Source: Chloroflexota bacterium
Lineage (GTDB): Bacteria > Chloroflexota > Anaerolineae > JAAEKA01
Reading direction: 5' to 3'
NCBI GenBank assembly: GCA_034717495.1
Contig: JAYELL010000033.1
Coordinates: 26,802-76,731 of the forward strand
Length of the DNA: 49,930 nucleotides
In this document: positions 127 through 14,430 of the stretch, piece by piece
Layout: each line of letters begins with the position of its first letter
Numbering within the stretch: the stretch's first letter is position 1
Program-made: the position numbers and the translations under genes
The notes under the pieces: generated by a model
Seen by the model: only the letters and a program-made list of their open reading frames with translations
Database searches by the model: none
Told to the model about the DNA's origin: nothing

Positions 127-720
127 CTACCTCTCTGAATCGAAGATCCAGGTAACCGCCCCAGCCAGGTCGTCGGCCACCGGGACCAACTCGTACCCCG
201 CCGCCCGCAGCTGCACCAGTTGCGATTCTCCCCGGCCTGTGCGAACCATCACTGGCCTGCACCCGGCACGCAGGCCGGCTTCAATGTCGGTGACAGCATC
301 TCCCACCAAAAAAGAGGCTCCCAGATCGATATCCATATCTTTTGCCGCCTGCAGCAGCATGCCCGGTCTCGGTTTGCGGCAGGTACAATCATCCTCGGGC
401 CGGTGGGGACATGCATACACGGCGTCGATGCGCCCTCCCTCGGAGCGGATACGGGCCACGAGGGCATCGTTGATCGCGTTCATCTCTTCCATCGTCAGAA
501 TGCCCCGGCCTACCGGAGATTGATTGGTAATGACCACGATCGCCAGGTCGCTGGCAGCCAGGCGTTCCAATGCCGGGAAAACGCCCGGCAGGAATTCCAC
601 ATCGGCCCAGGAGCGCACATAGTCGGCCCGGTTCTCGTTGATCACCCCATCCCGGTCCAGAAACACGGCACGTCGCCCGCCCCCATTGACCGTAGACCAT
701 TGACCACTGACAATCGACAA
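127..720 (-). CDS. gmhB: D-glycero-D-manno-heptose 1,7-bisphosphate phosphatase (HAD family)
   Basis: Cytoplasmic HAD phosphatase that removes one phosphate from heptose 1,7-bisphosphate in nucleotide-activated heptose synthesis. The HAD motif FLDRDGVIN is near residues 20-28 (D22 nucleophile, D24 acid/base). The Cys/His zinc-binding loop typical of GmhB (CPHRPEDDCTC followed by RKPRPGM) and the late acidic motif GDAVTDIEAG are also present. I chose the TTG start at 720: GAGGAG lies 7 nt upstream (728-733), overlapping the gmhA stop. The open frame continues to an ATG at 768 inside gmhA but lacks a ribosome site there. Length from TTG is 197 aa, normal for the family. Residues 1-14 before the HAD core are encoded by a repeat-like sequence (683-722). 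It is the last gene of the operon in this window; the matching nucleotidyltransferase (HddC or HldE type) is not here and may lie past the left edge. Confidence 0.88.
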   Translation of the reverse strand: MSIVSGQWSTVNGGGRRAVFLDRDGVINENRADYVRSWADVEFLPGVFPALERLAASDLAIVVITNQSPVGRGILTMEEMNAINDALVARIRSEGGRIDAVYACPHRPEDDCTCRKPRPGMLLQAAKDMDIDLGASFLVGDAVTDIEAGLRAGCRPVMVRTGRGESQLVQLRAAGYELVPVADDLAGAVTWIFDSER

Positions 721-722
721 TT
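683..722. repeat. TTGACC/TCAATGG-type dispersed repeat at the gmhB 5' end
   Basis: A short degenerate direct repeat with two ATTGACC copies (685-691 and 699-705) followed by CACTGACAATCGACAAT. It covers the gmhB start region and encodes its first residues. A related string (CAGTGGTCAA plus ATTGTCAG) recurs at about 23763-23786. Such GTCAATGG-like elements are common intergenic repeats in environmental genomes; family assignment is by eye only. Confidence 0.45.
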
Positions 723-724
723 TT

Positions 725-1351
725 TCACTCCTCGGGATATGCATCCTGGGCGCTGGCAAGCAATGCATCGCCGGAGGGCGGTTCCATGCGTATCCGCCTG
801 CGCAGGGCGAAAAGCAAGCCGTGGCAGATCACGGAAAAAACATCCTCGACCTGTTCCATGCCGTGACTGGGCACCTGAATCGTCACATCACTCAGTTGCA
901 GCAACCCACCTCCATCGAATCCGCATATACCGATTGTGGAGGCGCCTGCCTGGCGAGCCAGCCTGATCGTGTTCAGGACGTTGGCCGAGTTGCCACTGCC
1001 GCTGAAACCGATCACCAGGTCCCCCGGCTCGACGAAGTTGCGCAACTGTTCCGCCATGCCCGTTTCGTAGCCATCATCGTTGCTCCAGGCCATGAGCGCG
1101 GGCACATTATCGACCAGGGACATGGCGCGGAAGCGATGGCGGCCAGCCACGTTGGTTCCCTTGTTCAGGTCGCCGGCAAAGTGGGATGCGATGGCAGCGC
1201 TGCCACCGTTTCCGCAGACAAAGACACGAGCCTGCCGGCGCCAGGCATCCAGCAACTGTCCTGCTGCCGCATCGATCTGTTCAGCAGAAAGCTCGTCAAG
1301 CAACAGCGACACATCCCGTAGATAGGTGTTGATCCAGTTTATCGAGTCCAT
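725..1351 (-). CDS. gmhA: sedoheptulose 7-phosphate isomerase / SIS-domain phosphoheptose isomerase
   Basis: Isomerises D-sedoheptulose 7-phosphate to D-glycero-D-manno-heptose 7-phosphate, the first committed step to activated heptoses. The 208-aa protein is a single SIS domain. The phosphate loop GNGGSAAIASHFAGDL lies at about residues 48-63 and the second Ser/Gly loop FSGSGNSANV at about 116-125. A C-terminal helix with HGMEQVEDVFSVICH resembles the GmhA His-containing helix. Its stop overlaps the ribosome site of gmhB, so the two are translationally linked. The gap to the upstream glycosyl-phosphate transferase is only 33 nt. Another SIS isomerase function is possible in principle, but the adjacent heptose kinase and phosphatase make GmhA the best call. 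Confidence 0.88.
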   Translation of the reverse strand: MDSINWINTYLRDVSLLLDELSAEQIDAAAGQLLDAWRRQARVFVCGNGGSAAIASHFAGDLNKGTNVAGRHRFRAMSLVDNVPALMAWSNDDGYETGMAEQLRNFVEPGDLVIGFSGSGNSANVLNTIRLARQAGASTIGICGFDGGGLLQLSDVTIQVPSHGMEQVEDVFSVICHGLLFALRRRIRMEPPSGDALLASAQDAYPEE

Positions 1352-1384
1352 AGGGTTCTTTCGAGTAGTGAGGTCCCGGGAGAA

Positions 1385-2863
1385 TCAGCGGTCCGGCATC
1401 TGCGCCTTGCCTCGTTCGAGGCGCAATACGCGCTGCGCTGTCTGAAGAAGGATCTGCAGATCAAGCCAGATCGTCCAATTGCGAATGTAGTACATGGTTA
1501 AGCGCATCTCGTCGGCCAGGGTGCGTTTTTCGCCTACAGCCCAGGGGCCTGTGATCCCCGGCTTGACAGTGAGCAGATTGGGCAGCCAGGTTGAATGCAC
1601 GTCTGCCTGTCCAACCGATACCGTTCTGGGCCCAACCAGACTCATCTCGCCCCGCAGGATATTGATCAGCTGAGGCATTTTGTCAAGGCCGGTATTGAAC
1701 AGGAATCGCTGCAGACCAGAGACCTGTGTGGCTGCTGCAACGCCGGACGCCATATCCCTCTCGCTTTCAACGGTCCCAATCAACGGATGGGCAAACAGGG
1801 GTCGCGGCGTGTGCCCCAAGCCGGTGTGGAACTTCCAGGTCGTGAACGTGCCACCGCCCGACGCCAATACCCGATGCCGCTCCAACGCGGGACCCTTTTT
1901 ATTCCACCTGAGCGCCACGCCAATCAAGCCCATGAGCGGCAATGCTATCACCAGGTTGAGCGCTGCCAGACCGTAATCGAGGCCGGACTTCAACAGCGCA
2001 TCGAAGCCTGTGATGCGTTGCCGGTTGACCAATAATAGTGGCACGTGGGCCTCGTGGGTCACCTGGACGCCCGTCGTGAGGATCTCGTAAAATCCGGGCG
2101 ACAGCCTGATCTCGAAAGGTACCTCATCGCCAGCCAGACTGGCATCCTGCATAATCTCCTGGAACGTTTCCCAGGCCACGGCATTGCTGACAACGACGAC
2201 CTCGGCAACATCGTACTGGGCAGCCACATCCTGAAGGCGGTCGGGGCCACCGAGTACCCGAAGCGAGCAATCGTCCTGCGGCCCGCTCTCCGTCAGTTTT
2301 ACCATGGCACCGGCTGGCAGGAAGTCATCGATGAAACCGACGATCTCAACGCCGGCTGACGAGGCCGCCCGAAACTGGCGGGCGATGGCCATGCCCTGCT
2401 CATTGGCACCAACGATCAACGTACGCGTGCGCAGGTGCCCCTGGCGGCGCAGCCAGTAGATAATTTGGCGGAACAGAAAACGGCCTGCACCGACGAAAAG
2501 AACGCCAAAGAACCATAACAAGATCAGCCAACCCCGGCTGAGGGTAGCAATCCGCACCCAGTATCCGAGCATGATGACCGCCACAATGGCATACATGCCC
2601 GATTTGGCGATGTCGATGTAAACATCGAGGCCACCAAGCACGGTGCGCACGTCGTAGAGATTGTTGGCGGCAAAGATCACCAGCCAGATGGGCACAATCA
2701 GAAGGCTGACGCGAAGATAGATGGCGAACTCCTCGAAAGCCCGCTCCGGCAACAGGCCACTGCCGATGCGCAACCAATAGGCTGCCAGCAGTGCCAGCGC
2801 AACCGCTATGCCATCGATGACGACCAAAGCGACCTTTATCCGCCGCTTGCTTTTTTCGGTCAT
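1385..2863 (-). CDS. polyprenyl-phosphate glycosyl-1-phosphate transferase (WbaP/CpsE-like, long form)
   Basis: Membrane enzyme that starts glycan assembly by moving a sugar 1-phosphate from a nucleotide sugar to polyprenyl phosphate. The 492-aa protein begins with hydrophobic helices (about residues 10-130). A Rossmann-like CoA-binding/nucleoside-sensing domain follows (TLIVGANEQGMAIARQFRAA), then the C-terminal bacterial sugar transferase domain with LDKMPQLINILRGEMSLVGP and KPGITGPWAV. I place the start at ATG 2863, which overlaps the heptose kinase stop as ATGA and has GAGGTG just upstream. The open frame continues upstream as an antisense artefact of the kinase gene. The spacer in the catalytic domain (ALERHRVLASGGGTFTTWKF) is shorter and less canonical than usual. 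It is one of two initiating transferases in the operon. Confidence 0.85.
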   Translation of the reverse strand: MTEKSKRRIKVALVVIDGIAVALALLAAYWLRIGSGLLPERAFEEFAIYLRVSLLIVPIWLVIFAANNLYDVRTVLGGLDVYIDIAKSGMYAIVAVIMLGYWVRIATLSRGWLILLWFFGVLFVGAGRFLFRQIIYWLRRQGHLRTRTLIVGANEQGMAIARQFRAASSAGVEIVGFIDDFLPAGAMVKLTESGPQDDCSLRVLGGPDRLQDVAAQYDVAEVVVVSNAVAWETFQEIMQDASLAGDEVPFEIRLSPGFYEILTTGVQVTHEAHVPLLLVNRQRITGFDALLKSGLDYGLAALNLVIALPLMGLIGVALRWNKKGPALERHRVLASGGGTFTTWKFHTGLGHTPRPLFAHPLIGTVESERDMASGVAAATQVSGLQRFLFNTGLDKMPQLINILRGEMSLVGPRTVSVGQADVHSTWLPNLLTVKPGITGPWAVGEKRTLADEMRLTMYYIRNWTIWLDLQILLQTAQRVLRLERGKAQMPDR

Positions 2864-3993
2864 CCGGGCACCTCGCCCAACAATTGGGAATTGACGATCA
2901 GGTTTGACGCCGCAGCCGGCCGGTCGACGGCCTCGCGAATCAATCCGGGCCGGTGCCCATGCGGCGCAGTGCGGGAAATGGTGAGGCCGGCGTTCATCAG
3001 CACGCGCGCACCGGTGTTGTCGAAGCGAAAATCCATGCGGCGCAGGCCCAGTTTCTCCAGAGCCTGGGTGACAGCCAATTGGTATTCCGGTTCGCAATAG
3101 AGCATCAGGAATCCGCCGCCGCCAGCCCCGGTGATCTTGCCGCCAATTGCGCCCAAGGACCGGGCCGCATCGTAGCTCTCATCGATCAGCGCGTTGCTGA
3201 TTCCGGGAGCGAAACGTTTTTTGTGCATCCAGTTTTCGTGAAGAAGTTGGCCAAAGGCAGTCAAGTCGTCTCGTAGCAAACTCTCTTTCACATCGGCCAC
3301 CATGCCCTTGACACGATGAAGTGCTTCCACCGTTTTTGAACCGGTCTTGTGACTGGCATCGGTCTGCTTTTTCAGGATATCCGCCGAGTTGCGCGAGCTG
3401 CCCGTGAAAAAGAGCATGAGATTGTCCTGAAGTCGCTGGCGGGTATCCAGGGTGACATCGAGCGGAGTGACAGTTGTCCCATACCTGGTGAAAACAATCT
3501 CGTTGAGCCCGCCAAATGCCGCGGCGTACTGATCCTGCCTGCCAATGGGCATGCCCATCTTTTCGATTTCCATCTCACAGGCCAGTTCCGCCAGTTCCGG
3601 TTTTTTTAGATGCTCTCCCGAGGCGATGCTCAAGGCCTTGATAATAGCCACCGTCACCGTGCTGGATGAGCCCAGGCCAGTGCCGGGCGGGATCTCAGAA
3701 GCCAGGAACATCGATAAGCCCCGGTCGATGCCAAAGTGGTGCAGGATCGTTCTTGGCAACGCCAATATTCCATCGTCCGCCCGTTCGCCACCCAGAGAGT
3801 CCTGGCGAAAGAAGGTGCTGTAATCGGAGGATGCAACCTGCAGGGAATCGCCATCGTAGACCCGCAGGATCGCGTAAAAGTATTTGTCGATGGTCGTGTT
3901 AATTACAATACCATCATGTTGATTGAAATAGGCCGGCAGGTCTGTGCCTCCTCCGGCCAAACTGATGCGCACGGGCGCTCGGGCAATTAACAT
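2860..3993 (-). CDS. hddA: GHMP kinase, D-glycero-D-manno-heptose 7-phosphate kinase-like
   Basis: Predicted to phosphorylate heptose 7-phosphate at C1 with ATP, between the GmhA and GmhB steps. The 377-aa protein shows GHMP motif 1 at the N-terminus (APVRISLAGGGTDLPAYF), the ATP loop PPGTGLGSSSTVTVAII at about residues 100-116, and the C-terminal motif 3 GGKITGAGGGGFLMLY. The GGGTD start and the STTIDKY-like stretch (NTTIDKYFYA) match the HddA/fucokinase-type subgroup. An HddA-type kinase normally gives the alpha-1,7-bisphosphate and leads to GDP-heptose; that branch is inference from subgroup resemblance. The last ~40 residues are Pro/Arg rich and not part of the fold. The gene is coupled downstream by an ATGA overlap and follows the NTase gene after 23 nt. 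Confidence 0.82.
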   Translation of the reverse strand: MLIARAPVRISLAGGGTDLPAYFNQHDGIVINTTIDKYFYAILRVYDGDSLQVASSDYSTFFRQDSLGGERADDGILALPRTILHHFGIDRGLSMFLASEIPPGTGLGSSSTVTVAIIKALSIASGEHLKKPELAELACEMEIEKMGMPIGRQDQYAAAFGGLNEIVFTRYGTTVTPLDVTLDTRQRLQDNLMLFFTGSSRNSADILKKQTDASHKTGSKTVEALHRVKGMVADVKESLLRDDLTAFGQLLHENWMHKKRFAPGISNALIDESYDAARSLGAIGGKITGAGGGGFLMLYCEPEYQLAVTQALEKLGLRRMDFRFDNTGARVLMNAGLTISRTAPHGHRPGLIREAVDRPAAASNLIVNSQLLGEVPG

Positions 3994-4016
3994 TGAACTA
4001 TCTCACAGATCGGCTT

Positions 4017-5246
4017 TCATTTCGACAACATCGTTACAGATCGACGAGCAAGCCGGCGTGCCTGGAATCCAAGTCGTTGGCTACGGCTCATCTCTCTGGT
4101 TCCAATACCAAGACTGCCCTCTGGCGGCGGAAACATTCGAAACCGAAACTCCTGCCACATGGCTGCAGGTCGATCCAACAGCAACACTTCGATCATTGCC
4201 AGCCGCGTCCAGCCTTCCTTGTCATCCATCTCCGGCACAGCCAGCATATCTTCCGGCAGGATGGTCGACAAAACGCGCCGGCGAAGCAACGATGGACAGG
4301 TTGCGTCGAGCACGCCTGGCGGGACGGGCGAGTCCAGCAGGTCACTGGAAAGCGACAGGGCAGCATACAACAGCGTGCTTATGCCAGCAGATTGGGAACT
4401 GGCCACGATATACTCCCAGTCCAGCAGGGTGTCAAAGCGGCGAATCAACTCAGCCGCATCGCACAGCCACCGCAGCCCGACGAACCTGTGCTTACGCAGG
4501 TGCATGGCCTGGTGCAGCAACATATCCTCGGGCGAGAACCTGGTGGCCGGAGTCCCTTCGATTGCAAAGATCTCCGAGCGCCGCCGCAACAATGCATAAT
4601 CGAGCGGAATCAGCCCACGAGGCGACAGAGCCCAATGCACCTCCACGGCCAACGGTTGCTCGGTCAGCAAACGACCATGTAAGTTCAGGGCGTAGCCATT
4701 GGCCAGATGAAAATCGACGAAATCCTTTTCAGGATCAAGGAACCCGAGGGACTGCATCACGCGACATGCATCCTCCAGGTCACGCTTTTCGACAAGCAAG
4801 TCGATATCGATGGAGGGGCGCAAGGTGAAGTCACCGTATACCATATCGGCCAGAGCAATGCCCTTGAGGTAAACGGGGTGGATTCCTGCTTCTTCCAGCC
4901 TATTCAGCACCAGCACGGCCTGTCTGGCCTGCACCATCATATCGAAGGAAATCTGGCGGGCGCCATCGGTGATCCGTTGCCGCGGCTTTTCGGGAACTGC
5001 TTCGACCAGGTCCAGCGTTGCCAGATTGTGTCGCACGAGACCGGTCACTTCGTGCAGTTCTGCCAGCCTGGCCAATGAAGTCCAGTCCACCGGCCCCTGA
5101 ACCAGAGCGCGGATACGGCGGGTCTCATCGGAGGTCAGTACCGTCCTGCACAGCAACAATAGTAGCTCCGAGGTCGCCGCCCCGGACGTCCTGTCGATCT
5201 CGGATGCGGATGATGTGTGTGAAGGATACATAAGCATCAGGCCCAT
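4017..5246 (-). CDS. NTase-fold protein (uncharacterised nucleotidyltransferase family, PF14907-like)
   Basis: The 409-aa protein contains the nucleotidyltransferase-like signature YLKGIALADMVYGDFTLRPSIDIDLLV near residues 125-150, quoted in parts: YLKGIALADMVYGD, then LRPSIDIDLLV with the D-I-D metal pair. It resembles the family often found in polysaccharide clusters and annotated only as nucleotidyltransferase family protein. A helical C-terminal half follows (HQAMHLRKHRFVGLRWLCD). No product is known for this family; a role in glycan modification or regulation is guessed from context. The start could also be one of two further Met codons within the first six residues. Spacing of 36 nt to the epimerase places it in the same transcript. 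Confidence 0.75.
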   Translation of the reverse strand: MGLMLMYPSHTSSASEIDRTSGAATSELLLLLCRTVLTSDETRRIRALVQGPVDWTSLARLAELHEVTGLVRHNLATLDLVEAVPEKPRQRITDGARQISFDMMVQARQAVLVLNRLEEAGIHPVYLKGIALADMVYGDFTLRPSIDIDLLVEKRDLEDACRVMQSLGFLDPEKDFVDFHLANGYALNLHGRLLTEQPLAVEVHWALSPRGLIPLDYALLRRRSEIFAIEGTPATRFSPEDMLLHQAMHLRKHRFVGLRWLCDAAELIRRFDTLLDWEYIVASSQSAGISTLLYAALSLSSDLLDSPVPPGVLDATCPSLLRRRVLSTILPEDMLAVPEMDDKEGWTRLAMIEVLLLDRPAAMWQEFRFRMFPPPEGSLGIGTREMSRSQRLGFQARRLARRSVTMLSK

Positions 5247-5282
5247 CGAGCTGGCAAGAACCGCTTTCCTCTACCAGCCGGA

Positions 5283-6401
5283 TCAGGCACCGGCGATACG
5301 AACAGTCCCTAACTGCTTCATAACCTCTTCAGCCCCCGCATAGTAATCTCCGAGACCAGGCTGCTGCCAGGCCCAGGCCGCATACTCGGCAATAATCTCA
5401 CCTAGCGAGGTTTCTGGTTCCCAACCCAGAGCGCGCAGTCTGCTGATATCGGAGACGATATGCCGCGTGTCGCCAAATCGGTATTCACCGGGCACTTCTG
5501 GATGCAAGTCCACATCAAGCACATCGGCAACCAGTCCTCCGTATTCTAGCACGGTCACCGGGTGTGCGCCACCTACGTTGAATACCTGGCCGTCAGCCCG
5601 CTCATCCTCCAGAACCAGAACGTTGGCCCGGGCCACATCGCCCACGTAGACATAGTCGCGCAACTGGCCACCATCCTCGTAGGCGACCGGCCGTTGCCCC
5701 GCCAGCATCCGAGTGACGAATATGCGGCAGATACCGGAGTAGGCATTGCGAAAGCTCTGGCGGGGACCCTGAGTGATCGAGTAACGCATGGCCGCCGAAG
5801 CAATGCCATAGCGCCCTCCCAGGTTGATGGCGATCATCTCCTGGGTGTACTTCGACATGGCATATTGGTTGTGGGGCCTGACAACAGCTTCATCTGTCAG
5901 AGAATGACTCATCGGGCCACCGCAGACGGGACAGCTTACCTCCCACCTGGAGGCCATCAGTTGCTCCTCCGGACGCAGCAACGGATATTGTATGCCGTGG
6001 TCAGCACATTGATACTTGCCCTCGCCATACACTGCCTGGCTGCTGGCAACGACAACCTTCTCGATCGGCAGGCGCTCCGCCACGATGAGTTCGTAGATCA
6101 ACGCCGTACCGGTGGCATTGATATCGAAGAACTTGCTGAAGTCTGTCAGGTAATCCTGGTAGGCTGCGAGATGAAGCACCCAATCGATGCCTTCCAGGGC
6201 CCGGCGCACCACCTCCCGATCCCGCACATCCCCATGGATGAATTCCACGTCGGCCGGAAGATAGTCCGGCACCTGGCCAGGGATGTGCACCGGTGGCATG
6301 AGCGCGTCCAGCACCCGCACAGTGTAACCCTTTTCCAGCAGCAGGTCGACTGTGTGGGAGCCGATGAAACCGGCTCCACCGGTAACCAGTATCTTCGTCA
6401 T
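5283..6401 (-). CDS. NAD-dependent nucleotide-sugar epimerase/dehydratase with zinc-knuckle-like insertion
   Basis: Extended SDR enzyme of 372 aa acting on a nucleotide sugar in the cytoplasm. The NAD-binding motif TGGAGFIGSH is at residues 7-16; the catalytic YAMSK follows an SSQ/AVYGEG strand. Between them is an insertion with CPVCGG (about residues 155-165), a two-cysteine knuckle plus a second region before the active site. This insertion is characteristic of a subgroup annotated as dTDP-L-rhamnose 4-epimerase or UDP-glucose 4-epimerase-like; exact substrate unknown. The ATG at 6401 follows an AAAGG site. It lies 18 nt after the short sugar transferase stop and is cotranscribed with it. 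Confidence 0.8.
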   Translation of the reverse strand: MTKILVTGGAGFIGSHTVDLLLEKGYTVRVLDALMPPVHIPGQVPDYLPADVEFIHGDVRDREVVRRALEGIDWVLHLAAYQDYLTDFSKFFDINATGTALIYELIVAERLPIEKVVVASSQAVYGEGKYQCADHGIQYPLLRPEEQLMASRWEVSCPVCGGPMSHSLTDEAVVRPHNQYAMSKYTQEMIAINLGGRYGIASAAMRYSITQGPRQSFRNAYSGICRIFVTRMLAGQRPVAYEDGGQLRDYVYVGDVARANVLVLEDERADGQVFNVGGAHPVTVLEYGGLVADVLDVDLHPEVPGEYRFGDTRHIVSDISRLRALGWEPETSLGEIIAEYAAWAWQQPGLGDYYAGAEEVMKQLGTVRIAGA

Positions 6402-6419
6402 AACAACCTTTCGTCCTGC

Positions 6420-7154
6420 CTAACCAGCACCCTTTCCGATCAACATCACAAAGGGCGTTTTGATCATGATCCGGAGGTCCAGCCAGATCGAACGGCGCCT
6501 GATATAATCGAGGTCGATCTCGACCATCTCGCTGAAACCAACCTGACTGCGCGCCGTGACCTGATAAAGCCCGGTGATGCCTGGTGTCACACTCAGGCGC
6601 TGCCTGGCCCAGTCGTCATAGTGTTCGTACTCGTAAGGCACCGGCGGCCGGGGACCTACCAGGCTGATTTGGCCCATCAGCACGTTCAACATCTGGGGCA
6701 CTTCGTCGATACTCAACTTGCGCAGCCAGCGTCCGATCGAAGTTACCCGTGGATCGTTGACAACCTTGAAGATCCGCTGGCCACTTTCATCCTCCCCGAA
6801 GGCTGCATCGCTTTTTACGAACTGCTCCAGCCATTCCTTGTGAGCCGTGTTGTCGCTGTCGGCAGCCATGGTGCGAAACTTGTAGTAGCGAAAAGGCACG
6901 CCTCCTTTTCCAACTACGGTACCGCTATAGAACACTGGCCCCTTGGACGTGAACTTTATCATCAGACCAATCAGCAGCCAAATCGGACTGCCCAGGAAGA
7001 GAACCAGGAGGGAAAGCCAGACATCAACCGCGCGTTTTATGGGTCTATACCCGGGCGGTGCGTTTTGGTCCGCCCATTCGGCACTAATCAGTTGTGTTGT
7101 GTCAGTCGTCGCTTCCATTTTAGCAGTACCCGGCATCACGGGAGAACTTGTCAC
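6420..7154 (-). CDS. short bacterial sugar transferase (undecaprenyl-phosphate sugar-1-P transferase, PglC/WcaJ C-terminal type)
   Basis: Starts or branches glycan synthesis on polyprenyl phosphate at the inner membrane face. Of its 244 residues, the first ~35 are a soluble lead. A hydrophobic re-entrant helix follows (VWLSLLVLFLGSPIWLLIG), then the catalytic domain with FRYYKFRTM, LSIDEVPQMLNVLMGQISLV and GPRP, and VTPGITGLYQV. It lacks the multi-helix and CoA-binding domains of the larger transferase at 1385-2863. The ATG overlaps the upstream glycosyltransferase stop as ATGA. Two distinct initiators in one operon suggest either two glycans or different first sugars. Substrate cannot be read from sequence. 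Confidence 0.87.
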   Translation of the reverse strand: MTSSPVMPGTAKMEATTDTTQLISAEWADQNAPPGYRPIKRAVDVWLSLLVLFLGSPIWLLIGLMIKFTSKGPVFYSGTVVGKGGVPFRYYKFRTMAADSDNTAHKEWLEQFVKSDAAFGEDESGQRIFKVVNDPRVTSIGRWLRKLSIDEVPQMLNVLMGQISLVGPRPPVPYEYEHYDDWARQRLSVTPGITGLYQVTARSQVGFSEMVEIDLDYIRRRSIWLDLRIMIKTPFVMLIGKGAG

Positions 7155-8356
7155 CTGCTCCAGCTCAACACCCTGTAATAAAACGCCTCCAGTTTCTCCG
7201 TCAAGACGCGCCAGTCGAATTCCTCCTCCGCTGTTCGGCGGGCATTTTCACCCATTTCCCGGCAGTTCTCGGGATCTGCCAGCAGGTCAAGAACCGCCCC
7301 GGCAAACTGTTGGGGATCGTCATTGCCTGCCAGCACGCCAGGGCGGCGCCGTTGCCAGAGATCCTCCAATACATCAAGCCGGGTACTCACGGTGGGCCGG
7401 CCGGAGGAAAGATAATCGTTGGCCTTGCTGGGCCAGATTCCATTGTTGGCTACCGTGTCCAGCAGGGGCAGAAGCAGCAGATTGCTCGCGCTGAGATAGG
7501 CTGAAACCTGCTCGTACTTGATCCATCCCGTCTCGATCAAATAGTCCCCGGCGCCACGTTGCCAGGCCGGAGCCAGATCAACCTTGTGATTGCCGATCAG
7601 CAACACCTTGATATCCTGACCACTTCGCCGGCGGATAGCTTCCATGATATCCAGTAGAAAGGGCAGGTTTTTGTGGCGCAACACCCCAAGATATCCCAGA
7701 TAAATGCCATCCTTGCTCAAACCGACCTGGCGACGGGCCTCGAGCATGTCCATGGGAACGATTCCCTCCAGGTCGCAGCCCTGGGCCAGTTCGATGATGC
7801 GATCATGAGGAACCCCTTTTTGCAGCGCTCGCTCGTAGAGAGGTTGGCCCAGTGCAGTTGCGCCATCTGGATAGCCTCGAAAGGCCTCCTCGAAAAAGGT
7901 CTCCACCGGCGCCATCGCCGTCCGCACCACCGGATTGGATCGTTCGCTGTTGGTGCCGCCCCTGCCCCACCAGTCGCACCAGTCCAACACCATGGGCATT
8001 TTCCGGGCTCGCTGGGCGTAAATGGCAGGCAAAACAACGGCAGGCCGGCTGTCGAAGCCATGCACCATATCCCACCGGTCGCCCCGAATGAAGTTCATGC
8101 GGTTAAGGCTGTTCCAGGGATCCCAGCCTGAGCGACCCATGCCCCACAGCATATCGGGGCCTTCCACCATCCGCAGGCCACCGTCGACGACCTTCTCCTG
8201 GAATCCGCGCCGGGCGTCCGGTGAGATCGTGAGCAGGGTAACCTCATGGCCGCGGCGGGCCAGATGGCGAGCAAAATGATAGGTTCGGAAAAAGGTACCG
8301 CCACCTTTCCAGACAACATTGTGGTTCAGGATCAGGATGCGCAGGGGATCGGTCAT
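7151..8356 (-). CDS. GT4-like glycosyltransferase
   Basis: GT-B fold glycosyltransferase of 401 aa. The N-terminal domain begins with RILILNHNVVWKGGGTFFR, the glycine-rich acceptor loop of GT4 enzymes. The C-terminal domain has LGYLGVLRHKNLPFLLDI, a ribose/phosphate site region and WPSKANDYLSSGRPTV, where the usual E-x7-E is replaced by K-A-N-D, as seen in some GT4 subgroups. It probably adds one sugar from a nucleotide donor to the lipid-linked chain. ATGA overlaps couple it to the genes on both sides. Donor and linkage unknown. Confidence 0.83.
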   Translation of the reverse strand: MTDPLRILILNHNVVWKGGGTFFRTYHFARHLARRGHEVTLLTISPDARRGFQEKVVDGGLRMVEGPDMLWGMGRSGWDPWNSLNRMNFIRGDRWDMVHGFDSRPAVVLPAIYAQRARKMPMVLDWCDWWGRGGTNSERSNPVVRTAMAPVETFFEEAFRGYPDGATALGQPLYERALQKGVPHDRIIELAQGCDLEGIVPMDMLEARRQVGLSKDGIYLGYLGVLRHKNLPFLLDIMEAIRRRSGQDIKVLLIGNHKVDLAPAWQRGAGDYLIETGWIKYEQVSAYLSASNLLLLPLLDTVANNGIWPSKANDYLSSGRPTVSTRLDVLEDLWQRRRPGVLAGNDDPQQFAGAVLDLLADPENCREMGENARRTAEEEFDWRVLTEKLEAFYYRVLSWSR

Positions 8357-9855
8357 TGAAGATAGCCCAACCCTTCCAATTGGCGCCGGGTCTCATCATC
8401 CAAACCAAGACCCGCTGCCTGCTGATCGCTGATCCGGGCATAGGCATGGCATTGCTCCAACCAGTCAGCGAGCAGACCGCGCATACCATCCGCAACCTCC
8501 GGAAAGCCCCCGATGACATTGTGTTGTTCCCCGGGATCAGCCTTAAGATCGAAGAGCATTTCCCGATCGGCCATCTGTCGGCGCATATAGAACATAGGAT
8601 TGCGCACCAGTTTTTTGACCATTTCGGGATTGGTGAGGTGTTGCCAGTATCCCTGCATTCGCCGCTGCCAACCTGTAGTTTGCGAACCATGCTGCTCGCC
8701 ATCAAGGGCAGCCGGCGGTGCAACCTTCAGGTACTTCCATCTCTCCGTACGTACGGCCAGAAGCCGGTTGTTGGCAATGGAGGACTGAGTCTCGGCATAG
8801 ACGGCTCGATCCGACTCTGACACGCCTTCCAATACCGGCAGCAAGCTTTTCCCCTGCATTTCGCTCGCTTCCTCTGCCATGCCCAGGACATCCAGGATCG
8901 TCGGTGCAATATCGGTCAACTGCACCAATGCACCGCAGGACTTCCTGACGTCGGCAGGCACCCTCTTTTTTCCTCGAGGCATCTTGATCAGCAACGGCAC
9001 GTGCATTACCTCATCGTAGGCCAGATGCCCATGTACGAAATCGCCGTGTTCCCCGAAGGCCTCACCATGGTCACCTGCCACAACGATCAACGTATCGTCG
9101 AACACCTCCAGTTCCCTCAAGCGCTGCAACAACAGCCCGAATTGGGTGTCAGTGTAAGCGATCTCGCCATCGTAAAGGTCCAGGAGACGCTGAACGTCCG
9201 CCTGATTGCGCACCTGGCGCACGCTTTCTGCGCTGCCATCGATCCGGCCACCATATCCTGGATCCGACCATCGATCGAAACCGGACGGCGGGTAATAGGG
9301 ATCGTGCGGGTCCAGGGCCCAGAGAAACAGAAACCAGGGTTTTTCCTGACCGGTTGCCCCGTCCAGCCAGGTGAAGGCATGCTCGTTGACATCCTCGGCC
9401 AAAGGCAATACGACCGTCGTGTCCTGCTCGAAGTAAAGCTTCCAGGCGCCGGTATTGCTGACCTCGCGCCGGGCCACCAGGGATGGATCCTTGTAGAGAT
9501 CGTTGAAATGATCAAAACCGATGGCAAAGCCCAGCGATGAGGAGACATTGCCAATGGTGCTCACGGCCGCCGTCTGGTAACCGGCTGCCTGCAGCAGTTC
9601 CGGCAGGCGTGGCACAGCCTTCAAAAACAGGTCACTGCGGGTGCGAACCCCATGGGCCGGCGGATAGCACCCACTGAGAATCGAGGCCGCTATTGGCTTG
9701 GTCCAGGTACTGGGAGCGAAGGCACGAGAGAAGCGCACGGTCTCCGATTCGGCCGCCAGACGGTCGATGTTCGGCGAAGTCTCCCTTCCATAGCCATGGC
9801 ATCCCAGATGGTCGGCGCGCAGGGCGTCGACGATGTAGACCAGAACGTTGATCAT
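8353..9855 (-). CDS. sulfatase-fold (AlkP superfamily) hydrolase/transferase with Thr at the nucleophile position
   Basis: The 500-aa protein opens with VLVYIVDALRADHLGCHGYG (metal-binding Asp) and has GDHGEAFGEHGDFVHGH (second metal site) and a C-terminal LGYLQ end. In sulfatases the sequence C/S-x-P-x-R precedes the x-S-x-L-x-G strand; here the aligned string is TKPIAASILSG, so the nucleophile position is Thr and no formylglycine Cys or Ser is present. Thr is used by phosphodiesterases and by phosphoglycerol/phosphoethanolamine transferases of this superfamily, so a role in phospho-decoration of the glycan is more likely than sulfate removal (inference). There are no obvious membrane helices or signal peptide, so it may act in the cytoplasm. 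It overlaps its neighbours by 4 nt on both sides. Confidence 0.78.
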   Translation of the reverse strand: MINVLVYIVDALRADHLGCHGYGRETSPNIDRLAAESETVRFSRAFAPSTWTKPIAASILSGCYPPAHGVRTRSDLFLKAVPRLPELLQAAGYQTAAVSTIGNVSSSLGFAIGFDHFNDLYKDPSLVARREVSNTGAWKLYFEQDTTVVLPLAEDVNEHAFTWLDGATGQEKPWFLFLWALDPHDPYYPPSGFDRWSDPGYGGRIDGSAESVRQVRNQADVQRLLDLYDGEIAYTDTQFGLLLQRLRELEVFDDTLIVVAGDHGEAFGEHGDFVHGHLAYDEVMHVPLLIKMPRGKKRVPADVRKSCGALVQLTDIAPTILDVLGMAEEASEMQGKSLLPVLEGVSESDRAVYAETQSSIANNRLLAVRTERWKYLKVAPPAALDGEQHGSQTTGWQRRMQGYWQHLTNPEMVKKLVRNPMFYMRRQMADREMLFDLKADPGEQHNVIGGFPEVADGMRGLLADWLEQCHAYARISDQQAAGLGLDDETRRQLEGLGYLQ

Positions 9856-10970
9856 CCAGATACAGACCTGTAGAGCTCCAATAATCGTTCCACGTAGATA
9901 GAGATGTCGTATTCCGCTAGTGCCTGCCTGCGGTTTTGGTTTCCCATGCGATCGCGGAGATCGGGATCGTCCAGCAATGCAGTGATCGCACCGGCCAGGG
10001 CTGTCACATCCCCTGGTGGCACCAACAGGCCATTGCGCGGCTCCTCAAAAATGTCAGGAATGCCGCCCACAGGCGTTGTTACTACCGGAAGGCCGGCAGC
10101 CATGGCTTCCAGCACGGCGATCGGAAGACCCTCGGCAAAGGAGGGAAGCACCAGTAAGCTCGATTCCTGCAGCAGTTTCAGCTTGTCATCGCCGCGCACA
10201 AAGCCGGGAAAGACCACCGCCTCTGGAAAGGCAACTGCCTCTCGCAGCAGGTCGGGTGGCGGTTCGCCGCCGCAAATAACCACCTTCACGCCCGGATGGG
10301 CCGCGGCAACCTGGGGCACGGCGGCTATCAGGTCCCGCACACCCTTGCGCCGGGAGAAATCGCCCAGAAAGAGTACCTGGTTGGGCAATCGGGTTTCGGG
10401 ATTATCCGGTGGCCTGATCAGCTGGCAATCCACCGGGTTTGATAGCATCACTACCCGCTGTACGAACCCGGGCCCGGCATCCGCAATCTCAACCAAAACA
10501 GGCTGCCAGCCGGGCGAAAGCACAATGACCCTGGTCGCGCTGCGCAACGTCCAACGGACAAGACGCCTGCTGACGGCGCTACCGCCGTCGAAAAACGACG
10601 TCGCGGCACTTGCATCCCCTGGCAAATGCCAGTGAAACAGTACCGGCACACCTGACCAGCTCCCCAGAGCCAGATAAAGCGCGTGGCGATAGAAGCTGGT
10701 GCCGTCTCCGACATGCAGATGCATGACGTCCACGGACCGTCCCAGCAGATCGGCGGCCGTCTGCCACAGCGTCGCGCCGAAACGCCGTAGCTTGGCGATG
10801 GAACCGTGGCGAGTGCCTTCAGCCAGGTAGGTCAAGCAACAGCCTTCAGAGAGGCTCGAGTCCAGAATGGTTCCGGTCACGGCAGAGATTCCGCCGTAGA
10901 TCCTTGGCACAGGGCCAATCATCAAGACTCGAAGTCCGGTCTCCGAAACCAGGGGCATGGGGTTTGTCAA
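9852..10970 (-). CDS. GT4 family glycosyltransferase
   Basis: The 372-aa GT-B enzyme starts with VLMIGPVPRIYGGISAVT (acceptor-side glycine loop). The C-terminal donor domain contains VLFLGDFSRRKGVRDLIAA and the classical EGLPIAVLEAMAAGLPVV, where the two Glu of E-x7-E bind the nucleotide sugar. It likely extends the lipid-linked oligosaccharide. Start: the frame opens with TTG at 10970 (AGGTT upstream); an in-frame ATG lies four codons later at 10958. It follows the O-antigen ligase gene after a 76-nt gap that holds no clear terminator, and its stop overlaps the next ATG. Confidence 0.87.
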   Translation of the reverse strand: MTNPMPLVSETGLRVLMIGPVPRIYGGISAVTGTILDSSLSEGCCLTYLAEGTRHGSIAKLRRFGATLWQTAADLLGRSVDVMHLHVGDGTSFYRHALYLALGSWSGVPVLFHWHLPGDASAATSFFDGGSAVSRRLVRWTLRSATRVIVLSPGWQPVLVEIADAGPGFVQRVVMLSNPVDCQLIRPPDNPETRLPNQVLFLGDFSRRKGVRDLIAAVPQVAAAHPGVKVVICGGEPPPDLLREAVAFPEAVVFPGFVRGDDKLKLLQESSLLVLPSFAEGLPIAVLEAMAAGLPVVTTPVGGIPDIFEEPRNGLLVPPGDVTALAGAITALLDDPDLRDRMGNQNRRQALAEYDISIYVERLLELYRSVSG

Positions 10971-11046
10971 TTCAACCTGGCCGGACGAGCGAGACAGGTC
11001 ACGCGATTTGATAAGGTCGAAGGTGTTAAAAACCCATGGGCCCAGC

Positions 11047-12552
11047 TCATGGATCGCCAGTCAAGCTGCCGGGCGCCGGGTCCTGGTCCTCAGGAAGCAT
11101 GTATCTATCGATTGCCATGACAAGCCCGGCCATGATCCAGAAATAGACCGCTACCGTGGGCTGGGAAAAGACGTTGTCTCCCATGGCACCGACAAACATG
11201 CCGACAGTGCTGATCAAAAAGGCAAGGCCCAACAGCCGAAGCATTCGATCGGGCGCTTTCCGGTAGACGCGGAACCCCACGATGACCAGCACAACGAGGG
11301 TAGCAATGAAGGCCAGCGTACCGATCAGGCCCACATCCAGCATGAAGCCAAGAATCTCGTTGTGGGGACGGTTGCCAACCAGAAACTTCTCCCGCCGCCA
11401 ATAAAGGCCTCCGGACGCGGGCCCCGCCTGAAGAATGTAGTAATTCTCGAAGGCTTTCATGCCCAGCCCACCCAGAAGGCTCAACGGATTGCTGGTGATC
11501 CATTCGGTTGCGAAACGCCAAACATCGAGGCGACCGAAAAGGGTACTATCACTTTCGGAAACCTGGGTAACGCGGTTGAGCAGAGGCGCAAATGCGACCA
11601 ACGCCACACCCGCAACCAACGGAATGGAAAAGAGCAATTGGCGGAAGCGAGCCTTTTTCTCCAACAAACCCAGAACAAGAAGGGAAGCCACCATGGCAAT
11701 CCATGCACCGCGAATAAACGTCAAAACCAGGGCCACGACAGCAGCCAGCATCAACGCAAATAGCAGCGGCCGGCTGAACCACCATGAAACGTCCGAGCAG
11801 TCACCCAACTGATCGGTGTCCTCGCCTCGCTCGGCAAGGAAAAGAACCAGCAGCAACGGGATGATCAACACCAGATAGTACGCCAGTGTGAAAGGCCCGC
11901 CTGCCAGACCATAGATACGGTTAAAGACCGCGCCCGCCCAGATGATTTGACCTCCGCCGGTTGCCGCCTGAAAAAAGCCGATCAAAATGGGTATTAGCGC
12001 CGAAACCACCAGGGCCAAAACCATTCGTCTGACCTGCACCCGGGTACGGATCGTGTCGACAATCAACCAGACCAGCGCGTAATAGCCAACAAAGCGAAAA
12101 ATGCCCTTGATAGATTCCAGTTTCACCGGGGTCCAGATCAAAGTCACGATGGGCACCGCAAGAAAGATCAGATAGGGCACCGAAATGGGCAGTCCACCCA
12201 CGGGCTTGCGATCAATCAGAATCCGGAGTAAGGTTCCGACGAGCAGCAAGGACATCAGCACGATGTCCGGGCTCAGGCGTACCCCGCCAAACGAGATATC
12301 GACGCTGTTCAGGTTGACGGCAAACAGGGTGTAGAAGATCAGTGCCCATTCAGGCCGCATGACAACAGCGGCGATCCAGATGATCCCTGCGGCGGCAGCC
12401 AGCAAAAATAGGGCCAGCCTGGGGGATTGGAAATAACCCAGAAACAGGCCAATCATGACCGCGCCAGCCAATCCTGCCGGTATCAACAACCAGGCGGGAT
12501 GGAAACGAAAGCTGCGGGGGCCTGCTGAGCGACCAATTTGAGCGTTGAACAC
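11047..12552 (-). CDS. O-antigen ligase / polymerase family membrane protein (Wzy/WaaL-like)
   Basis: Polytopic membrane protein of about 501 aa with roughly 11-12 hydrophobic helices. In the C-terminal half it has the periplasmic-loop segment NRPHNEILGFMLDVGLIG, the Wzy_C-type HN motif, and RGAWIAMVASLLVLGLL before it. Such proteins join or polymerise lipid-linked glycan units outside the membrane. The open frame extends to 12696 but that part lies inside the upstream gene. The GTG at 12552, 16 nt after the upstream TAG and preceded by GGGACGG, is the first plausible start; the next Met is within the first membrane helix. Ligase and polymerase roles cannot be told apart from sequence. Confidence 0.82.
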   Translation of the reverse strand: MFNAQIGRSAGPRSFRFHPAWLLIPAGLAGAVMIGLFLGYFQSPRLALFLLAAAAGIIWIAAVVMRPEWALIFYTLFAVNLNSVDISFGGVRLSPDIVLMSLLLVGTLLRILIDRKPVGGLPISVPYLIFLAVPIVTLIWTPVKLESIKGIFRFVGYYALVWLIVDTIRTRVQVRRMVLALVVSALIPILIGFFQAATGGGQIIWAGAVFNRIYGLAGGPFTLAYYLVLIIPLLLVLFLAERGEDTDQLGDCSDVSWWFSRPLLFALMLAAVVALVLTFIRGAWIAMVASLLVLGLLEKKARFRQLLFSIPLVAGVALVAFAPLLNRVTQVSESDSTLFGRLDVWRFATEWITSNPLSLLGGLGMKAFENYYILQAGPASGGLYWRREKFLVGNRPHNEILGFMLDVGLIGTLAFIATLVVLVIVGFRVYRKAPDRMLRLLGLAFLISTVGMFVGAMGDNVFSQPTVAVYFWIMAGLVMAIDRYMLPEDQDPAPGSLTGDP

Positions 12553-12568
12553 TGGATGATCCGTCCCG

Positions 12569-14251
12569 CTATTCTCGCAAATAACCGAGGCCGGCCAATT
12601 GCTCGCGGATGGCTGCCTCTTCATCTGCCGACAACTGTACCCCGTCCGCGGCGGGTTGCGTCTCGTATTCCTCGAAAGCCACCGGCTTTCGTGCATCCGG
12701 CGAGAAGAGGTCTATGAGAACGTTGCCGTCCATGGCGGGTGAGATTGGCAAGCCCATCGAGTACAGAATGGTGGGCGCCATGTCGACAATGTTCGCTCCT
12801 TCCAGCCACTCTCCCTGGCGGACTCCCGGTCCTGCTGCCACGAACAACCCGGTGGGGTGGTGGCTCGCGCTGTACTCGCTGAGCTGATCCATCGGCATGG
12901 GCGTTACCAGGGGTCCATCGATCGCAGCACCGCCGGTGTAGTCGGCGGTCAACTCAACCAGTATATCCGGAATATCGTCCAGGTAGGGTCCTTCAAAGAG
13001 TTCCTCGCGCCGGGATGCCCTGGCAACGATCGGGACGCCGGTATCGGGATCGGTCAGCTCCGCCAACATCTCGACCAGGTGCTCACAGAGGCGCTCGTAT
13101 TCATCGCCAGGCGACACAATGCCCTCGGATTGTCTCCCTACCATGTTGACGACAATCCCCTCGACGGAGGGGAATATCTTGAACCGGTACACCTGGGTTT
13201 CCGACCAGTCGACATTGCTGAGATTCATATGCCTGGCAAACAGGTTGGCCCGCATCCCGGCAGGCATCCGGTGCCGCAGCCTTTCGCGCCATTGGGTGGG
13301 CAGGTTACGGCGCAATCCGCTAACCATCCTGTTGAACCGACGCGATTTACCGGAGGTGCCAGCTCGCCTGCGAAGCAGCCCCTGTCCGGCCAACCACGCG
13401 TTCAAATGTACTTGCCGGTGGGGATAGGGTCCCATGCCATGGTCCGACATCACGAAAATGGTTGTCTCGCCCGGTTCGGGGATGGCTTCGAGCAACCGGC
13501 CGATTTCCCGATCTGCCACCTCATATTGGTGATTGATGACCTGGCCGAACTGTTGCGCCCCTTTTGCATCGTAGGCGGGATAATCGGGGTCGGCATATTT
13601 CCAGAACAGATGCGGGATGTTATCGGTACTGTTCCATACGATCAGGAAGAGGTCGAATTCCTGTTCATTTAGGGCATCAAGCGAAATATCGGTATACTTC
13701 TGCACCCAATAATCGGCAGCTCTGGCCGTTTCCTCCGGGGACAACGAGAAGTTGAAATTATCAGGCATCTCGTCCCAACGCCCCAAGTCCCGCGCCATCG
13801 ATTCAGGATACACCTGAGGCGCCGGGCCGAACGGCCTGGGAAAGCCGCTGACCAGGAAGCCGTTGACCGCAAAGGGCGGATAGGTCATCGGCACCCCGAC
13901 AGATCCGACCCGTCCACCTCGCTGGCTCACCAGTTCAGGAAGACTTCGCCCCTGATAGTCGCCACTGGTGGCAAACTCGTCCCGGTAGCCGCCATAGGTA
14001 CTCAGGTCGAACTTTCGAAACTGGTAGACCCCGTGTCGGCCTGGGTTCTGTCCGGTCAGAAAGGTCACCCAGGCAGCGGCCGAGATCGGAGGCACGGTAG
14101 ACGCCAGCGGACCTGCCGTGCCCCGGGCAACCAATCGGGCCAGATTGGGCATGCAACCCGTTTCCATCAGGGGTCGGGCGATATCCCAGGTCGCACCGTC
14201 GAGACCGATGACAATGACCGGGGAAAGGGGTACAACTGTCGGCTTCTGCAT
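12569..14251 (-). CDS. AlkP-superfamily phosphodiesterase/phosphohydrolase (type I phosphodiesterase-like)
   Basis: The 560-aa predicted metalloenzyme has VIVIGLDGATWDIARPLM (first metal Asp), the nucleophile region VPPISAAAWVTFLTGQNPGR (Ser or Thr in the ISA segment), MSDHGMGPYPHRQVHLN (second metal site) and a late ASHHPTG histidine. This pattern matches the predicted AlkP phosphohydrolase/phosphomutase group (COG3379-like). No signal peptide is evident. It is the first gene of the glycan operon. I chose ATG 14251 because a good promoter (14261-14289) puts the transcription start about 3 nt upstream. The frame opens further up at a TTG (14374), but that stretch contains the promoter. Substrate unknown; a phosphorylated glycan or lipid carrier is a guess from context. 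Confidence 0.78.
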   Translation of the reverse strand: MQKPTVVPLSPVIVIGLDGATWDIARPLMETGCMPNLARLVARGTAGPLASTVPPISAAAWVTFLTGQNPGRHGVYQFRKFDLSTYGGYRDEFATSGDYQGRSLPELVSQRGGRVGSVGVPMTYPPFAVNGFLVSGFPRPFGPAPQVYPESMARDLGRWDEMPDNFNFSLSPEETARAADYWVQKYTDISLDALNEQEFDLFLIVWNSTDNIPHLFWKYADPDYPAYDAKGAQQFGQVINHQYEVADREIGRLLEAIPEPGETTIFVMSDHGMGPYPHRQVHLNAWLAGQGLLRRRAGTSGKSRRFNRMVSGLRRNLPTQWRERLRHRMPAGMRANLFARHMNLSNVDWSETQVYRFKIFPSVEGIVVNMVGRQSEGIVSPGDEYERLCEHLVEMLAELTDPDTGVPIVARASRREELFEGPYLDDIPDILVELTADYTGGAAIDGPLVTPMPMDQLSEYSASHHPTGLFVAAGPGVRQGEWLEGANIVDMAPTILYSMGLPISPAMDGNVLIDLFSPDARKPVAFEEYETQPAADGVQLSADEEAAIREQLAGLGYLRE

Positions 14252-14260
14252 AGCCGCGGA

Positions 14261-14289
14261 ATTGTACCACGCAGCCAATGATGTGCCAA
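14261..14289 (-). promoter_or_regulatory. sigma-70-like promoter of the glycan operon
   Basis: Minus-strand TTGGCA (14284-14289), 17-nt spacer, TACAAT (14261-14266). The expected start point is at about 14254, leaving only 2-3 nt before the ATG at 14251, so the first mRNA would be leaderless. No ribosome site precedes that ATG. Confidence 0.65.
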
Positions 14290-14430
14290 GAACATGGTTG
14301 TACCGTCGGGGCATCCCCAATAAAGAAGCCAGCGAAAAGGTTGTGATGTCCACAAGGGTTGCTCGACCTGCCAACCCCTATCTTTGACCCGCTCCAGCTT
14401 CTGCGGTATGATCAACCTCGATGAGTTCAC

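Follow-up and report, generated by a model that had tools for sequence, protein, structure and literature searches.

Priming transferases control the entry of scarce undecaprenyl phosphate into surface glycans. A run of glycan genes that holds two such transferases raises the question of whether both of them work. We asked this of a Chloroflexota locus within the window, which is the whole stretch of DNA that was analysed (49,930 nucleotides). The locus is a run of twelve genes, all in one direction on the minus strand (127-14374). A sequence-only reading had described it as an operon that makes a heptose glycan, with two initiators and no flippase. The named relatives of the locus were mostly MAGs of the Anaerolineae/Caldilineales (Chloroflexota).

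Layout of the gene run

The first gene of the run encodes a type I phosphodiesterase-family protein (12569-14374, start codon provisional; PF01663, E 5e-37). It is followed by genes for a Wzy_C O-antigen ligase/polymerase family membrane protein (11047-12696; PF04932, E 6e-15) and for two GT4 glycosyltransferases (9852-10970, PF00534, E 2e-38; and 7151-8356, PF13692 and PF00534), with a sulfatase-family protein (8353-9855; PF00884, E 3e-42) encoded between the two. A short phosphoglycosyl transferase (PGT) with an Asp-Glu dyad in the motif SIDEVPQ comes next (6420-7154; PF02397, E 8e-59). Genes of this part of the run overlap by four bases at 7151-7154, 8353-8356, and 9852-9855. Further along lie an SDR-family NAD-dependent epimerase/dehydratase (5283-6401; PF01370, E 3e-44), for which no model was above its cut-off among the NCBIfam matches listed, and an NTP_transf_5 protein (4017-5246; PF14907, E 2e-56). 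The run closes with an HddA-type GHMP kinase (heptose 7-phosphate kinase, 2860-3993), a long PGT homologue with a degenerate active site, which we propose to be a pseudo-PGT (1385-2863; PF13727, E 2e-11, and PF02397, E 8e-35), a GmhA-type SIS isomerase (sedoheptulose 7-phosphate isomerase, 725-1351), and a GmhB-type HAD phosphatase (heptose 1,7-bisphosphate 7-phosphatase, 127-768). The Pfam matches (PF00534/PF13692 and PF04932) bear out the GT4 enzymes, of which there are two, and the ligase/polymerase named in the sequence-only reading. The NTP_transf_5, SDR epimerase, sulfatase-family, and phosphodiesterase-family genes were absent from that reading.

A scaffold gap of 10 N directly precedes the start of the window, and beyond it lies an enolase gene on the opposite strand. 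The same GmhB-enolase neighbourhood was found in four relatives (L053, L054, L055, and L082), so operon genes hidden in the gap are unlikely. From the window leftwards to the contig start, the genes were those for enolase, sulfur transfer/tRNA, FabF, Pth, Mfd, and others (names assigned partly by eye). Neither the HddC-type guanylyltransferase nor the flippase that had been suggested for this side of the window was found there.

Active site and lineage of the long transferase

The long transferase (1385-2863) is a protein of 492 aa for which WbaP was the best match in both sequence (8t53, E 5e-27) and fold. An AlphaFold2 model based on a 40-sequence alignment had a mean pLDDT of 83.9, with residues 351-376 below 50. 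Its transferase domain matched PglC (8e37) at VIA Z 19.3 and 3.1 Å over 177 residues; the whole model matched WbaP (8t53) at VIA Z 21.0 with an rmsd of 15.6 over 383 residues, domain placement being different or uncertain. The transferase fold is thus kept in the predicted structure, as is the DX12P motif of the re-entrant helix (D296, P309) in the sequence. The structure matches listed were mostly Rossmann folds aligned to residues 143-282 and were silent on the ligand of the DUF.

In place of the Asp-Glu dyad, the long transferase has D394-K395. The counterpart of PglC Arg88 is F389 (by alignment it precedes the Asp by five residues, the spacing of the PglC numbering), and that of PglC Arg145 is Lys446, a conservative change; these equivalences derive from alignment spacing and the WbaP alignment rather than from a superposed active site. 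According to PMC10519829, both arginines matter for undecaprenyl phosphate binding and the dyad is present in all superfamily members; PMC12802240 gives the dyad, Lys59, Arg88, and Arg111 as conserved among monotopic transferases. Each of the six family genomes has an orthologue with the Asp-Lys pair, at 67-72% identity to the long transferase. The short transferase (6420-7154), by comparison, is a small-type monotopic PGT with PF02397, the Asp-Glu dyad, and no DUF, and it was aligned to WbaP 30us at E 7e-41. The earlier count of two initiators fails because the long transferase is missing the catalytic Glu as well as further residues of the active site. From these residues we infer that the long protein lost catalysis, and the short transferase is likely the sole initiator of the operon.

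The wider comparison comprised 111 loci with a long transferase: all 95 matches of a search of the class (298 genomes, 83 of which had a match; E up to 1e-55) and 16 of 46 further named loci, the others having been left out as duplicate contigs (27) or as distant (three, L177-L179). The scan pattern contained the degenerate motif, so the 16 added loci are biased to it. The class sample alone held 30 degenerate loci (29 with HddA upstream, one cut) and 65 loci with the intact dyad, hereafter D-E (19 with HddA downstream, 46 with none within 6 kb), where 'none' can mean 'not seen' as some loci are short contigs.

Among the 111 long transferases, 65 were D-E and 46 were without the Glu, with D-K in 34, E-K in four, D-R in three, H-V in three, and D-H in two. 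The position of PglC Arg88 was Arg in 65/65 D-E versus 10/46 degenerate sequences and that of Arg145 in 63/65 versus 2/46. The degenerate sequences retained the Asp (46/46) and Pro (44/46) of DX12P and the counterpart of PglC D168 (46/46). They formed one clade with support of 1.0, and did so again when the tree was built from the N-terminal part only, with support of just 0.50. In a tree rooted on an outgroup of two sequences, the D-E sequences did not group as a clade, as expected if D-E is the ancestral state. The loss of the dyad, judged from these trees, was old and probably single. Three degenerate loci came from MAGs labelled Desulfobacteraceae, Bacillota, and Armatimonadetes (L169, L172, and L175, respectively), which are possibly misbinned.

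Gene order differed between the two types of locus. Of the 46 degenerate loci, 43 had HddA within the 5 kb upstream and none had it downstream; the other three were cut by the contig start. Measured between gene centres, it lay within 2.3 kb in 41 loci, at 3.1 kb in L155, and at 5.0 kb in L097. In D-E loci, HddA was found within 6 kb downstream in 19/65 and within 6 kb upstream in none; one locus (L191) had it 6.8 kb upstream. In 30/46 degenerate versus 0/65 D-E loci, a same-strand gene for a short transferase lay at most 8 kb upstream. Fisher tests overstate these co-locations, since the degenerate clade is one lineage and its counts are not independent. No short transferase was seen in the 8 kb upstream of the other 16 degenerate genes, and about six of these loci (L090, L091, L166, L168, L171, and L172) had more than 7.7 kb of upstream sequence, so the partnership is not universal. 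What consistently accompanies the degenerate gene is HddA, not the short transferase; NTP_transf_5 was within 6 kb of the long transferase in five of the 46. Heptose genes were present within 6 kb of the D-E gene in 32/65 loci, and the heptose link is therefore not special to the degenerate clade. Synteny and monophyly taken together therefore place the active and the degenerate lineages in different slots of heptose operons.

The degenerate gene is under purifying selection, as whole-gene dN/dS in seven close pairs was 0.046-0.185 and transferase-domain dN/dS in the six unsaturated pairs was 0.083-0.206. Mean pairwise identity in the transferase domain was 0.615 within D-E and 0.439 within the degenerate clade; in the N-terminal part, it was 0.393 and 0.427, respectively. 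The D-E relatives thus conserve the transferase domain most, whereas the degenerate clade conserves both parts about equally.

That selection also acts on the transferase domain fits an unlikely but serious alternative to loss of catalysis, in which the long protein remains active as a transferase but by a changed chemistry, a Lys or Arg replacing the Glu-Mg2+ function and the donor being a nucleotide-heptose or another substrate. What makes an enzyme with Lys for Glu conceivable is that the second dyad residue is basic (K or R) in 41/46 sequences; the residue before it is still Asp in 39/46 (Glu in four), although both dyad residues are missing in three (L167, L168, and L173). The long transferase retains Asp394, Lys344, and Arg413, 10/46 sequences keep the Arg88-type residue, and the linkage to HddA is constant, but the Arg88 position is not Arg in 36/46 and the Arg145 position is not Arg in 44/46, with replacements that vary between lineages.

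Heptose supply, activation, and export

The sequence-only reading had described GmhA, HddA, and GmhB as a heptose supply line. GmhB was above the curated NCBIfam cut-off (NF006506, 181.5 bits, cut-off 178); the GmhA-type protein (PF13580; TIGR00441, 104 bits, cut-off 209) and the HddA-type kinase (NF049969, 196 bits, cut-off 600) had these names as their best matches, both below cut-off. The four best solved structures for the kinase were the heptose kinase 3k85 (E 8e-57), the sugar kinases 4usk/4usm, and the putative heptose 7-phosphate kinase 4n3o; fucokinases came next, at E values of 2e-21 or weaker. In two relatives (L088 and L089), a single protein of 671 or 675 residues with SIS, NTP_transferase, and HAD domains, i.e., a GmhA-HddC-GmhB fusion, lies beside HddA, and in two others (L095 and L096) an HddC-like nucleotidyltransferase is fused to GmhA. 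HddC-like nucleotidyltransferases were found near the long transferase in 12/46 degenerate and 13/65 D-E loci. Because the heptose genes travel together and relatives have HddC-like genes and fusions, a nucleotide-heptose pathway is the natural reading. The synteny of GmhA, HddA, and GmhB across the class and the fusion in two relatives agree with the earlier description, and the assignment of the three genes as a putative heptose supply line is well supported.

An improbable alternative is that the kinase acts on a non-heptose sugar and that the cluster encodes something other than a heptose pathway. The sub-threshold scores of HddA and GmhA would allow it, as would the presence of GmhA near the long gene in only 18/46 degenerate loci, but most genomes without a cluster copy have GmhA elsewhere (22 of the 24 genomes searched had a match), the closest solved structures of the kinase are heptose kinases, and the GmhA-HddC-GmhB fusion adjoins HddA in both relatives that have it. 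The four genomes of genus g2 carry their GmhA elsewhere in the genome. Loss of GmhA in G001-G004, which have no cluster copy, was considered and rejected, a copy at 68-73% identity being encoded elsewhere.

A dedicated HddC was searched for in the host genome, where ten PF00483 matches were detected, none of them on the contig of the window (C33). The best match to the HddC model NF049965 was 113 bits against a cut-off of 300, and 0/32 genomes had a match above it. Nine of the ten host proteins (all but the one on C101) and one neighbouring kinase were compared with NCBIfam, and none was above the HddC cut-off. The host PF00483 match closest to a relative's HddC-like protein was a three-domain protein on contig C47, with 42-44% identity over the first domain. 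Single-domain NTP transferases with a weak NF049965 match in three other genomes (G002, G004, and G119) were also rejected as candidates, as by eye they sit in other polysaccharide clusters, without HddA.

No flippase was encoded in the run (127-14374), as had been noted before, and this arrangement turned out to be ordinary for the group. Four PF01943 proteins were above cut-off in the host genome, all on other contigs; parts of a Wzx/Wzy-dependent pathway are thus present, with Wzy_C in the operon and the Wzx family (PF01943) elsewhere in the genome. In 110 of the 111 related loci, no ORF resembled the host's four PF01943 proteins, which were the only queries, so that diverged flippases could escape; the exception was a D-E locus (L182) with one Wzx-like ORF. 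Pfam matches of ten ORFs from relatives included Wzz, Wzy_C, and others, and no flippase. Given the location of the PF01943 genes on other contigs and one positive locus in 111, an unlinked flippase is the rule in the group as far as tested. The suggestion that the heptose is not destined for LPS is consistent with the absence of LpxC, a single marker with no match in the host genome (95.6% complete) and matches in 4/14 control genomes, these four being diderms.

Proposed role and comparison with known systems

Taking these results together, we propose that the product of the operon is a heptose-containing surface glycan linked to undecaprenyl. GmhA, HddA, and GmhB would produce heptose 1-phosphate, which a nucleotidyltransferase encoded elsewhere in the genome would activate. 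The short transferase would be the only working initiator. The long one, a pseudoenzyme in this reading, keeps its membrane bundle of four helices, a DUF of the nucleotide-binding type (PF13727), and the transferase fold with its re-entrant-helix motifs, but neither the catalytic Glu nor the Arg that orients undecaprenyl phosphate. Its DUF may sense a nucleotide or nucleotide-heptose, and the protein may scaffold or gate the short initiator or other enzymes of the heptose glycan.

The WbaP DUF, according to PMC10942596, is a dimer interface that responds to UMP/UDP, a nucleotide-sensing role that was only recently assigned to the DUF of large transferases. Short monoPGTs are without the DUF, and a large transferase of Myxococcus is activated by a partner protein, as given in PMC12802240. 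A non-catalytic large-type protein next to a small-type enzyme that has no DUF suggests a division of labour in which the small one primes and the large one provides a membrane scaffold and nucleotide sensing. For the long transferase of this locus, we hypothesize such a partner role, and the reading of it as a pseudoenzyme, i.e., a non-catalytic partner in an undecaprenyl-linked heptose-glycan operon with the short transferase as sole working initiator, has in our judgement about an even chance of being correct. We extend the reading more tentatively, and with somewhat greater doubt than belief, to a Chloroflexota-centred PGT lineage that lost catalysis long ago and now serves as a non-catalytic subunit linking nucleotide-heptose supply to priming by a separate small transferase.

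It is very unlikely that each transferase is an ordinary, active initiator with a glycan of its own: PF02397 is present in both and the long one resembles PglC and WbaP in fold, but the dyad given as universal in the superfamily in PMC10519829 is missing from 46/46 clade members. The idea of a decaying pseudogene persisting by chance, which the degenerate active site and its lineage-specific replacements might evoke, can practically be dismissed, as the frame is open in 46/46 loci, dN/dS is well below 1 in 7/7 pairs, and the gene is kept in 6/6 genomes of the family at 67-72% identity.

The pseudoenzyme reading, if true, would mean that a superfamily whose members have all been credited with the Asp-Glu dyad includes a branch of pseudoenzymes; the literature searched, mostly outside subscription papers, contained no account of a dyad-less PGT. 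A conserved dyad-less branch beside heptose genes would lend itself to telling the catalytic role of large transferases apart from their regulatory one. Initiator annotations in Chloroflexota also call for caution, as the genes concerned may not encode enzymes.

The long transferase shares with the large monotopic PGTs (WbaP 8t53; WcaJ, EpsZ) the four-helix bundle, the PF13727 DUF, PF02397, and DX12P. It differs from these in having other residues in place of the dyad Glu and of the PglC-type Arg88 and Arg145, and its gene adjoins that of a separate short transferase, downstream of HddA. With the small monotopic PGT PglC (8e37, 8g1n), the long transferase has the fold of the transferase domain in common; PglC, however, is an active enzyme consisting of the catalytic core only, and the dyad-keeping small type in the window is the short transferase (6420-7154). 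The GDP-D-glycero-D-manno-heptose pathway (GmhA-HddA-GmhB-HddC) serves the Campylobacter capsule and the S-layer glycans of Gram-positive bacteria. The present operon likewise has GmhA-, HddA-, and GmhB-type genes together, and some relatives have an HddC-like gene in theirs; unlike in that pathway, there is no HddC-like gene in the operon or the part of the contig read here. A further parallel is EcpK, a pseudokinase reportedly needed for exopolysaccharide synthesis in Myxococcus, which belongs to another enzyme family and acts at another step but likewise represents a pseudoenzyme kept in a polysaccharide pathway.

Heptose genes at the window edge and in relatives

A scaffold gap of 10 Ns (L006:19792-19801, in the locus around the window) immediately precedes window position 1, and both of its flanks are GC-rich and of low complexity. 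A short sequence at ~675-725, further copies of which were detected at four other sites in the genome, falls within the N-terminal extension of the GmhB open reading frame (127-768). Because this repeated sequence sits in the extension, the true start of GmhB is probably later than that of the reading frame.

In relatives, SIS, NTP_transferase and HAD domains were found in one protein at two loci (L088:2999-5014 and L089:7101-9128), and these three-domain proteins are GmhA-HddC-GmhB fusions. In genus g2, GmhA was located apart from the cluster (G004:C51, locus L224; G001:C243, locus L221), where it adjoins a different large transferase, of the Asp-Glu type. In L083, the stretch containing an NTP_transf_5 gene and the heptose cluster also includes a Radical SAM/PqqD/SPASM protein (L083:14745-16223).

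Possible further transferases lacking the Asp-Glu dyad

Additional dyad-less transferases may exist. Two PF02397-like proteins, both only distantly similar, possess LDK (Cupriavidus, L178:8560-10062) or LEK (Nostocaceae, L179:8446-9264) instead of LDE, the motif holding the dyad.

Other proteins in and beside the operon

The glycan operon includes one sulfatase-family (8353-9855) and one phosphodiesterase-family protein (12569-14374). On the opposite (plus) strand, 3 kb past the operon's first gene, a membrane protein (17529-19052) matched ANKH (PF07260, E 7e-8); it is possibly a MOP-type transporter. In the SDR (5283-6401), a CPVCGG stretch that resembles a zinc-binding insert precedes the YxxxK region.
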